A stretch of DNA of 64,000 nucleotides from Nocardioides marmorisolisilvae (GTDB taxonomy: Bacteria; Actinomycetota; Actinomycetes; Propionibacteriales; Nocardioidaceae), in contig NZ_CP134227.1 in NCBI RefSeq assembly GCF_031656915.1, forward strand, positions 806,001 through 870,000, written 5' to 3'. Both the position numbers and the translations under genes were made by a program. Below are positions 16,206-19,486 of this stretch, one piece after another. Every line of letters begins with the position of its first letter. Within the stretch, counting starts at the first letter, position 1. The notes beneath the pieces were generated by a model. That model was not told where the DNA came from and did not search any database. It saw only the letters and a program-made list of their open reading frames with translations.

Positions 16206-16244
16206 TCGAGTGACCCCAGCGGCGCAGCGCCGTTGAATGCTCTC

Positions 16245-17330
16245 GTGACCCGTCGCGACCGGACCCTCGTCCCCCTCCTCACCGCACTGCTCGCCGGCGT
16301 TCTCGCCCTCGCGCCCGGGGCCACGGCCACTGCGTCACCGACGCCGGGTGCGCAGCTGGCGCTCGCCCGCTCGCCGTACGCACCGCTGGATCGGCCCGGC
16401 CCGGAGCTGCACGTCCCGCACCGGGCCCTCGTCCGGGCGCTGAGCTGCCACGGGCGGCCGCACCACGGGCCCGAGCCCGTCCTCCTCAACCCCGCCACCG
16501 GGGTGACGCCGAAGCAGAACTACTCCTGGAACTACGAGCGCGCGTTCACCGCCCAGCACCGCTACTGGTGCGCGGTCACGATGCCGCAACACACCCTCGA
16601 GGACATCCAGCGCTCCGGCGAGTTCCTGGTCTTCGCGATCCGCTGGATGCACCACCACACCGCCCGACGGATCGCGGTGCTGGGGCACAGCCAGGGCGGC
16701 ATGTCGATGCGCTGGGCGTTGCGGTTCTGGCCCGACACCAGGCGCATGGTCACCGACGTGATCGGGATGGCGGGATCCAACCACGGCACCACCGCGCTGC
16801 TGTGCGGCGAGCCCGTCCAACCGGCCTGCCCGCCGGCCGACTGGCAGCAGAGAGCCGGAGCCCACTTCATCCAGGCGCTGAACAGCCGCGCCGAGACGTT
16901 CCGTGGCATCTCCTACACCGAGATCTACACCCACACCGACGAGGTGGTCCGGCCCAACAGCAGCCCGGCGAACTCGTCGTCGTCGCTGCACACGGGGCGG
17001 GGCAGGATCACCAACGTCGCCACGCAGCAGGTGTGCCCGACCGACGTCTACGAGCACCTCACGGTCGGGACCGTCGACCCGGTGACCTACGCACTCGTCA
17101 TGGACGCGCTCACCCACCGCGGGCCGGCGAAGCCGGCGCGGGTGCCCCGCACGGTGTGCGCCCGCCTCTACCAGCCTGGGGTCGACCCGACGAACGCACA
17201 GACCTACCTGCAGAGCCTGGCCGCCGTGCCGGGGCTGCTCACGGTGAGCACACCGCTCGATCTGGTCGGCGCGCCCGAGGTGCGCGCCGAGCCGAGGCTG
17301 CGCTGCTACGTCTTCCGGCACGGCTGCTGA
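16245..17330 (+). CDS. Secreted lipase class 2 family protein
   Basis: About 361 residues. After the basic VTRRDR start a hydrophobic stretch leads to an AxA-type cleavage region near residue 28. The catalytic core has the nucleophile elbow GHSQGG and a downstream EHLTVG segment with the probable catalytic His. Paired cysteines fit an exported fold. GTG at 16245 gives a good signal peptide; TTG at 16233 would add four residues. It is related in pattern to the lipase at 6192 but longer. The next gene, a fatty acyl-CoA reductase, uses a fatty-acid product, so a link between extracellular lipid hydrolysis and fatty alcohol synthesis is possible. Confidence 0.85.
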   Translation: MTRRDRTLVPLLTALLAGVLALAPGATATASPTPGAQLALARSPYAPLDRPGPELHVPHRALVRALSCHGRPHHGPEPVLLNPATGVTPKQNYSWNYERAFTAQHRYWCAVTMPQHTLEDIQRSGEFLVFAIRWMHHHTARRIAVLGHSQGGMSMRWALRFWPDTRRMVTDVIGMAGSNHGTTALLCGEPVQPACPPADWQQRAGAHFIQALNSRAETFRGISYTEIYTHTDEVVRPNSSPANSSSSLHTGRGRITNVATQQVCPTDVYEHLTVGTVDPVTYALVMDALTHRGPAKPARVPRTVCARLYQPGVDPTNAQTYLQSLAAVPGLLTVSTPLDLVGAPEVRAEPRLRCYVFRHGC

Positions 17331-17348: not shown

Positions 17349-17378
17349 TCGACAGACGTGGTTACCGCTCAGTAATAT
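17349..17378 (+). promoter_or_regulatory. Promoter with overlapping inverted repeat before the acyl-CoA reductase
   Basis: TCGACA (17349-17354) and TAATAT (17373-17378) are separated by 18 bases, close to a primary-sigma promoter. The inverted repeat TTAC-N6-GTAA (17362-17375) lies across the spacer and the -10, where a bound repressor would block RNA polymerase. TetR-type lipid regulators commonly use such short dyads. Confidence 0.5.
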
Positions 17379-17473
17379 TTCCGGCGCGGATAGCCGAACC
17401 CGGTCCGACCGAGTTGAATGGCTGTCTGGACTCCCTCCCCACACCCCGACCTCCCGAGAGTGGTTGATCGACC

Positions 17474-19486
17474 ATGGCCTACTTCGTCACCGGAGCGACC
17501 GGATTCATCGGCAGGCACCTCGTCAAGGAGCTCGTGGACAACCGTGATGGCGAGATCTACGTGCTCTGCCGGGAGAGCTCGCTACCACGGCTCGCCGCGA
17601 TGGCCCAGCAATGGGGCAACGACGCGCGGGTGATCCCGGTGGTCGGCGACCTGTCCAGCGACCACCTTGGCGTGGACCCCGATTGGATTGCGGCCAAGGC
17701 GGGGACCATCAGCCACTTCTTCCACCTGGCCGCGATCTACGACATGACCGCTTCCGCGGAGATGAACGAGCGCCTCAACGTCGGCGGCACCCGCGCCGCG
17801 CTCGCGCTGGCCGGGGAGCTGCAGGCGGGTTGCTTCCACCAGGTCTCCTCGGTCGCGGCGTCCGGTGACCACCGCGGCGTGTTCGACGAGTCGATGTTCG
17901 ACGAGGGCCAGCGGCTGCCGTCCCCCTACCACCGAACCAAGTTCGAGTCGGAGAAGATCGTCCGCGACGAGTCCCCGGTGCCGTGGCGGGTCTACCGGCC
18001 GGCGATCGTGGTCGGCCACTCCGAGACCGGGGCGATGGACAAGATCGACGGCCCGTACTACTTCTTCCCGCTGTTCAAGCGGATGCGTGACCTGCTGCCG
18101 GGCTGGCTGCCCCTGGTGGGCGTGGACCTCGGCGACACCAACATGGTGCCGGTCGACTACGTCGCCAAGGCGATGGACCACCTCGCCCACGTGCCCGGCC
18201 ACGACGGCGAGGCCTTCCACCTGGTCGACCCCGAGCCGCAGAGCACCGTCGAGGTGATGAACCTGTTCGCGGCGGCTGCGGGGGCGCCACAGTTCGCTGT
18301 GCCGGTGGACCGCTCGGTGACGTCACGGCTCCCCACCGCGCTGCTGCCCGAGTCGCTGCGGCCCGGTGCCCTGATCGGCGCCGCGCTGCGTACCCCGGTT
18401 GCCCACCTTGCGCTGAACCAGACCCTGGGGCGGCTCGGCATCCCGGCCGAGGTGCTCGAGCACGTCTCCTTCCCGAGCGTCTACGCCACCCGGCACACCG
18501 AGAAGGCGCTGGCCGGCAGCGGCATCGCCGTACCCGCCCTCGAGTCGTACGCCGGCACGCTGTGGTCCTACTGGGAGGAGTTCCTCGACGACTCCATCAA
18601 GGACGACAAGGCTGCCGTCGCGGCACTGAAGGGGAAGACGGTGGTCATCACCGGCGCCTCCTCCGGCATCGGACTGGTCACCGCCGTCCAGGTGGCCAAG
18701 GCCGGAGGCGAGCCGATCCTGATCGCACGGGGCAAGGACAAGCTCGAGGCGACCAAGGCGTTGATCGAGACCCAGGGCGGCACCGCACACGCCTATCCCT
18801 GCGACCTGTCCGACCTCGATGCGATCGACCAGCTCACCAAGACCCTTTCGGAGGACTTCGAGCACATCGACTTCGTCGTCAACAACGCCGGACGCTCGAT
18901 CCGGCGCTCGCTGAAGCTCAGCGAGGACCGCTTCCACGACTTCGAGCGGACCATGCAGCTCAACTACTTCGGCGCGATCCGGCTGGTGATGGGCCTGCTG
19001 CCCACGATGCGCGCGCAGAAGTCCGGCCACATCGTGAACATCTCCTCGATCGGTGTGCTGACCAACCCCCCGCGCTTCTCGGCGTACGTCGCCTCGAAGG
19101 CCGCCCTCGACGCCTGGAGCAACGTGGTCAGCTCCGAGGTGGTCGGCGACGGCATCTCGTTCACCAGCATCCACATGCCGTTGGTTCGCACCCCGATGAT
19201 CGCCCCCACCAAGCTCTACGACCGCTTCCCGACCATCAGTCCTGGACAGGCGGCCCGCAAGGTGATCACCGCGCTGGTCGACCGGCCGCACGAGATCAAC
19301 ACGCTCACCGGCAACCTCGGAGCCCTTGCGCACACGCTCGCACCCAAGGTCGCCTTCCGGGTCCTGCACCTCGCCTACCAGGTCTTCCCCGACTCGGCGG
19401 CCGCCCGGGGCGATGCCGAAAGCAGCAGCCGCAAGGAGAGCGAGCAGGTGATGCTGGCCCGGCTGCTCAAGGGCGTGCACTGGTGA
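17474..19486 (+). CDS. Two-domain SDR fatty acyl-CoA reductase
   Basis: A 670-residue fusion of two Rossmann reductases. Domain 1 (about 1-370) is an extended, male-sterility-type SDR with GATGFIGRHLV and catalytic YHRTK. Domain 2 (about 385-620) is a classical SDR with ITGASSGIGL, NNAGRS, and SSIG followed by YVASK. This arrangement and length match actinobacterial acyl-CoA reductases of the AcrA1 (Rv3391)/Maqu_2507 type, which reduce fatty acyl-CoA to aldehyde and alcohol for wax esters. Which domain performs which step is from family knowledge. ATG at 17474 follows a 95-base leader. The downstream SRPBCC gene overlaps by GTGA. The promoter has a dyad suited to a lipid-responsive repressor. 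Confidence 0.88.
   Translation: MAYFVTGATGFIGRHLVKELVDNRDGEIYVLCRESSLPRLAAMAQQWGNDARVIPVVGDLSSDHLGVDPDWIAAKAGTISHFFHLAAIYDMTASAEMNERLNVGGTRAALALAGELQAGCFHQVSSVAASGDHRGVFDESMFDEGQRLPSPYHRTKFESEKIVRDESPVPWRVYRPAIVVGHSETGAMDKIDGPYYFFPLFKRMRDLLPGWLPLVGVDLGDTNMVPVDYVAKAMDHLAHVPGHDGEAFHLVDPEPQSTVEVMNLFAAAAGAPQFAVPVDRSVTSRLPTALLPESLRPGALIGAALRTPVAHLALNQTLGRLGIPAEVLEHVSFPSVYATRHTEKALAGSGIAVPALESYAGTLWSYWEEFLDDSIKDDKAAVAALKGKTVVITGASSGIGLVTAVQVAKAGGEPILIARGKDKLEATKALIETQGGTAHAYPCDLSDLDAIDQLTKTLSEDFEHIDFVVNNAGRSIRRSLKLSEDRFHDFERTMQLNYFGAIRLVMGLLPTMRAQKSGHIVNISSIGVLTNPPRFSAYVASKAALDAWSNVVSSEVVGDGISFTSIHMPLVRTPMIAPTKLYDRFPTISPGQAARKVITALVDRPHEINTLTGNLGALAHTLAPKVAFRVLHLAYQVFPDSAAARGDAESSSRKESEQVMLARLLKGVHW

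Follow-up and report, generated by a model that had tools for sequence, protein, structure and literature searches.

The dyad TTAC-N6-GTAA that spans the -10 element of the acr promoter is almost certainly a real operator. As far as the sequences of related genomes tell, it very probably serves a conserved bacterial protein as its docking site, and this protein would switch fat-metabolism genes on and off. A TetR-type protein resembling FasR of M. tuberculosis is a strong candidate for its reader.

A dyad across the -10 element of the acr promoter

The features are as follows, with positions counted in the window, i.e. the whole 64-kb stretch of DNA analysed.

16233-17330, plus strand: Lipase_2-like gene, 5′ neighbour of acr
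17349-17354, plus strand: -35 element TCGACA, by resemblance to the consensus only
17362-17375, no strand: operator dyad TTAC-CGCTCA-GTAA, with half-sites TTAC (17362-17365) and GTAA (17372-17375)
17363-17374: dyad core TACYN4RGTA, within the operator dyad
17373-17378, plus strand: -10 element TAATAT, overlapping the right half-site of the dyad
17411-17420, plus strand: GAGTTGAATG box in the acr 5′ leader, kept in close relatives (compared by eye)
17474-19486, plus strand: acr, two-domain SDR and predicted acyl-CoA reductase (NAD_binding_4 and adh_short domains; NCBIfam PRK07201 match)

The first-pass annotation had placed a TTAC-N6-GTAA dyad across the -10 element of a TCGACA-18-TAATAT promoter, and this arrangement was confirmed at positions 17362-17375. 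The spacer between the -35 and -10 elements has 18 bases, and the first bases of the -10 element are those of the right half-site. Between the dyad and the ATG codon of acr (17474) lie 98 bases. The Lipase_2-like gene is not downstream of the dyad, since it ends 31 bases before it. The motif occurs once in the window, where shuffles lead one to expect 0.02; the 4.23-Mb genome contains 5 copies, as compared to 1 for a reversed control. The GAGTTGAATG box of the leader is perhaps a second promoter. By eye, it is preceded by a GTGAC-type box in the acr leaders of close relatives.

Conservation upstream of acr orthologues

A set of 80 acr orthologue loci belongs mostly to Nocardioides and Marmoricola, the others to Williamsia, other actinobacteria and, for three loci, gammaproteobacteria; further orthologues were taken from related genomes. 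Within the set of 80, upstream regions of 170 nt were compared for 77 loci, 3 being too short. The exact TACYN4RGTA core is present in 18 of these regions. TAC and GTA are found at spacing 6 in 21 of the 77, whereas each of the spacings 2-5 and 7-10 occurs 0 to 2 times; shuffles of the same regions gave about 0.1 on average. Across the orthologues, the half-sites and their 6-base spacing are kept, whereas the centre of the dyad varies, as does the number of bases that separate it from the gene.

Loss of the dyad upstream of orthologues retaining the promoter had been named by the first-pass annotation as the outcome that would speak against it. Within the genus, the dyad persists: the core is exact in 15 of 19 loci, has one mismatch in 2 and is absent from 2 (shuffles, 0.05). 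This set comprises 21 loci assigned by genome handle, less L095 and L106, left out because their start motif went unrecognised. In the wider set, the exact core is missing from 59 of the 77 regions. Among ten Nocardioides/Marmoricola-type relatives with proteins 77-84% identical (L006-L014 and L082), eight have the exact core, L012 has one mismatch and L014 has no core. None of the four Williamsia loci (L015, L016, L061, L071) carries it, with proteins 77-78% identical; the Williamsia gene was possibly acquired by horizontal transfer, its protein being as close as in same-family relatives. In five of the 18 core-bearing loci (L019, L021, L022, L031, L064), the core begins 22-23 nt before the ATG codon, and a -10 element overlapping it would yield a leaderless mRNA.

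Recurrence of the motif at fatty-acid genes

With up to one mismatch, 26 sites were found in the window's own genome. Many of these are expected by chance, as the reversed control gives 21. The TACYN4RGTA core is intact in 14 sites and broken in 12. Four of the 14 core-intact sites lie in a prophage-like array, and 9 of the other 10 precede fatty-acid or electron-transfer genes, the exception being the site at 3050060. The nine targets are acr, ccr (crotonyl-CoA carboxylase/reductase), fabG, a DUF4442 gene, an enoyl-CoA hydratase, sdhC (b558 type), two acyl-CoA dehydrogenases, of which one is FadE5-like, and an EtfD-like Fe-S protein. The names FadE5 and EtfD were assigned by eye, the family matches of both proteins being generic. 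None of the 12 sites with a broken core is clearly followed by such a gene (2 are if two doubtful cases are included); no gene was called alongside three of the twelve (L117, L118, L121). The difference between core-intact and core-broken sites gives a Fisher p of 2e-5, or 0.002 with the doubtful two counted, the split into lipid and other genes being post hoc, made after the genes were known.

The prophage-like array (L153; G000:C1:3286645-3286745, outside the window) holds four TACYN4RGTA dyads spaced by 22, 21 and 44 bp and is flanked, by eye, by prophage- or ICE-like genes. It could consist of phage operators that use the half-sites of the host regulator, or be unrelated. A search for a phage origin yielded 3 viral contigs that match a two-site array, with a GC content of 0.25-0.43 and no evident relation, and these matches were set aside.

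In 24 genomes of the same genus, TTACYN4RGTAA occurs at 55 sites as compared to 8 in reversed controls. Forty-six of these were inspected: 35 precede fatty-acid-metabolism or lipase genes and 11 are other or unclear, the assignments being made by eye from translated starts, without family searches. The targets so named comprise DUF4442 hotdog-like proteins, acr, thiolase/fabG4-like, ccr, EtfD-like, acyl-CoA dehydrogenase, FadD-like and enoyl-CoA hydratase genes, a MceG-like ATPase, a desaturase-partner-like oxidoreductase, and GDSL and secreted lipases. Of the remaining 9 sites, 8 are at acr by position and 1 is inside the prophage-like array. At the DUF4442 genes (L157 and many genus loci), the dyad lies 10-11 nt before the ATG codon, which suggests leaderless mRNAs with the -10 element inside the operator.

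In the family (61 genomes), the motif extended by flanking G and C gave 41 sites against 1 in the control. Among the 23 site loci inspected, etf-, fadE5-, DUF4442-, acr-, thiolase- and lipase-like genes were found together with several unrelated ones; three (L233, L236, L247) have no usable gene call at the site.

The class set contained 148 genomes of completeness at least 90, and 4 genomes with a best match of only E 3e-24 to 3e-21 were scored as free of the FasR homologue described below. The 133 genomes with a homologue have 761 sites as compared to 207 in controls, or 579 against 207 when the repeat-rich G111 and G129 are removed; the 15 without have 23 as compared to 15. No enrichment was observed in family f25 (40 sites, 90 in controls), all 12 genomes of which have the homologue. 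The 14-base pattern is present in 73 copies in G111, 109 in G129 and 1 in G155, a third genome of the same genus. The copies in G111 and G129 were rejected as a regulon, since they resemble a palindromic repeat dispersed through the genome. At the 7 loci inspected (within L285-L298), the palindrome is some 45 bp long and has TTACTGCGCAGTAA, or a sequence close to it, at its centre.

A FasR-like protein as candidate reader

Among the 47 TetR genes of the window's own genome, a single one has TACYN4RGTA within 450 nt upstream of its HTH.

G000:C1:3557055-3557693, minus strand: FasR-like TetR gene, outside the window

In its promoter, the core sits on TAGGCT, seven bases before the GTG start. The closest reference is M. 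tuberculosis FasR (Rv3208; PDB 6o6n, 6o6o and 6o6p). The protein matches 6o6p over residues 12-212, comprising the HTH and the effector domain (phmmer E 1.8e-48), with identity at 76 of the first 160 aligned positions. The recognition helix SKPVLYQHF is identical in both and is also found in the best 30 fasR-like loci. The FasR paper singles out three residues, L98, L106 and F123; with a chain offset of 20, picked because it places L, L and F at these numbers, L106 and F123 are kept and L98 is replaced by V. FasR is also the best NCBIfam model for the protein; because the score of 232.1 bits lies under the cut-off of 330 for this mycobacterial FasR equivalog, we call the protein FasR-like, not FasR.

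Homologues with at least 58% identity are present in 56 of the 61 family genomes, two as fragments. Wherever a family genome has a strict site (23 genomes), a homologue is present too, in one case as a partial match; 33 of the 56 have no strict site. The genomes without a homologue (G031, G065, G069, G074, G086) have 0 strict sites and are too few to count. In the best 30 fasR-like loci of the 61 genomes, the exact core is in 14 promoters and not in 16. TAC and GTA occur at spacing 6 in 15 of these loci, each other spacing in the ranges 2-5 and 7-10 being found 0 to 2 times (shuffle mean 0.07).

The site at the fasR-like gene, TACCCCCGAGTA, matches the core only: with a 20-base profile it scores 1.7 as compared to 18-30 for the training sites. 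With this full profile, the best of the 47 TetR promoters reached 12.0, none being near the training range, and the profile scores are not independent because the training sites were picked as lipid-gene sites. Only the shorter core singled out the FasR homologue.

Several other regulators were considered. The operator core of KstR is AAC-N2-GTT, and KstR was discarded, the dyad being TAC-N6-GTA. MftR, MadR, InbR and DarR were also set aside, as their motifs differ in the descriptions drawn from the literature. The divergent TetR and EmrB/QacA-like MFS genes of L120 and L167 have a similar, TTACCGATCGGTAA-type operator; they look like a local drug-pump system, likely a separate one, and were rejected. 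For another TetR (L206, L329-L335), 6 loci were scanned, and at 4 of them its own promoter holds TAC-N5-GTA, with the half-sites one base closer.

The FasR co-crystal oligonucleotide, TACCCGTACGTAGAACTCGCCAGTA, contains one exact TAC-N6-GTA and a second copy with one mismatch, a result matched by 5 of 20000 shuffles (PMC7382501, the part of the paper used here). Against the narrower TACYN4RGTA, its exact half lacks the R, and the half with Y..R has AAC for TAC. The TetR-type, acyl-CoA-sensing repressor postulated by the first-pass annotation gains support from the fatty-acid gene set, the FasR homologue, the dyad core in the promoter of the latter, and this oligonucleotide with the same half-sites and spacing.

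Proposed mechanism and alternative readings

We infer binding by the FasR-like protein, repression and release by acyl-CoA. In the absence of long-chain acyl-CoA, a FasR-like dimer would lie across the -10 element of acr and keep RNA polymerase off. When long-chain acyl-CoA builds up, the dimer would leave the DNA and free the acr promoter. The same release would free the beta-oxidation, electron-transfer and related genes that bear sites, as well as the regulator's own gene. Loss of binding with long-chain acyl-CoA would thus make the genes inducible by their substrate. That a FasR-like repressor acts through the acr operator is probable, and the whole chain including the acyl-CoA step somewhat less so, though still favoured.

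The weakest alternative is a chance dyad, in which the -10 element alone is conserved and TTAC is incidental. A GTA within TAnnnT is indeed common anyway (56 of the 115 GTA in the acr upstream regions), as compared to 17 of the 19 right half-sites of acr dyads. But TAC is kept exactly 6 bases from GTA while the centre changes, 6 is the only spacing enriched between 2 and 10, and the motif recurs at fatty-acid genes; the dyad is therefore not ascribed to chance, a reading that we regard as hardly credible. The same positions bear on whether the right regulator has been named with the wrong sign. An activator or dual role, as for M. tuberculosis FasR, which activates fas-acpS, the FAS I operon (PMC7382501, in the part used), would agree with L072 and L081, where by eye a one-mismatch dyad lies upstream of the likely promoter, off the -10 element, and with the 3 of 8 other sites of the window's own genome that lack TAnnnT at the right half-site (5 of 8 have it). 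This overlap, which 13 of 14 fasR-like dyads and 17 of the 19 at acr show (that of the window among them), would put the protein at a position that normally blocks polymerase, and we consider such a role quite improbable. Because M. tuberculosis FasR is an activator, the sign of regulation could nevertheless differ by promoter.

The most substantial alternative, in our view unlikely, keeps operator and regulon and assigns them to a different TetR reader, for example a repressor of the FdmR type, the FasR homologue being a target or a second reader. FdmR reportedly governs fadE5 along with further genes of fatty-acid catabolism (PMC9262360, in the part used). In G102, a genome of family f7, 5 of 15 sites were inspected; the motif precedes genes that by eye resemble fabG4, fadE5 and etfD, and the fifth site lies before a monooxygenase-like gene. 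In addition, the FasR-like protein has a second or third match at E 1e-20 in some f7 genomes. Against this stands the lack of the core in the other 46 TetR promoters of the window's own genome. Moreover, the next two SKPV-type TetRs, rejected as readers, are missing at E 1e-30 from 11 and 21 of the 23 strict-site family genomes. Neither has the core upstream at any of the loci scanned, namely those in which the searched helix was found (18 of 30 for the first, 6 of 7 for the second). The cross-genome follow-up covered these two and the FasR homologue out of the 47 TetRs. We keep the FasR-like protein as the preferred reader.

In a wider reading, which we offer tentatively, the FasR-like protein would be an ancient, nearly class-wide and self-controlling regulator of actinobacterial fatty-acid breakdown that acts at -10 elements, in many cases those of apparently leaderless genes; FAS I activation in mycobacteria would be a later recruitment. 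With our results, a promoter dyad that stood alone becomes part of a testable regulon, for which a candidate regulator in Nocardioidaceae can be named. They also link the site to a mycobacterial protein of studied structure and suggest that lipid breakdown may have been the first role of FasR-type proteins.

Comparison with known systems

FdmR of M. marinum reportedly responds to acyl-CoA. Its regulon (Dong 2021) resembles the one predicted here in that a TetR protein controls fatty-acid catabolism including fadE5 (PMC9262360, in the part used). The operator of DarR, ATACT-N4-AGTAT, shares the inner half-sites TACT..AGTA and the 4 central bases; its outer bases are A and T, those of the window T and A, where the sequence reads TTACC-N4-AGTAA. 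DarR targets also differ, and its ligands are c-di-AMP and cAMP (PMC10636190, from excerpts of the paper). In the Nocardioidaceae literature, partially covered, no paper among the matches listed names the site, and these matches include steroid regulators but no general fatty-acid regulator; in the portion of the Nocardioides simplex study considered, only steroid-related motifs were seen (PMC7807495). Excerpts of other papers were also drawn on (PMC10501769, PMC9301340, PMC8728441, PMC4564863, PMC4482099, PMC7652896, PMC8872791, PMC5541348).

A TAC-6-GTA palindrome was predicted in 2012 upstream of the mycobacterial genes Rv3229c, Rv3230c and Rv2524c (PMC3388012, in the part used), and the kind of site described here was therefore already known. 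This motif X (Table 7 of that paper) resembles ours in its half-sites, its spacing and its location upstream of fatty-acid genes, and it is associated with palmitate-induced clusters. It differs in that 2-3 copies lie together at desaturase, oxidoreductase and fas genes, and the part considered names no regulator, whereas our sites are mostly single and belong to another gene set.

The closest relative is FasR of M. tuberculosis, a TetR protein that binds three inverted repeats at fas-acpS and is freed from DNA by acyl-CoA of C16 or more (PMC7382501, in the part used). The two systems share homology over about 200 residues, an identical recognition helix and operator DNA of the TAC-N6-GTA type. 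They differ in their targets: FasR activates the FAS I operon, whereas the sites described here, on -10 elements or close to them, belong mostly to catabolic genes and also to the gene of the regulator itself.
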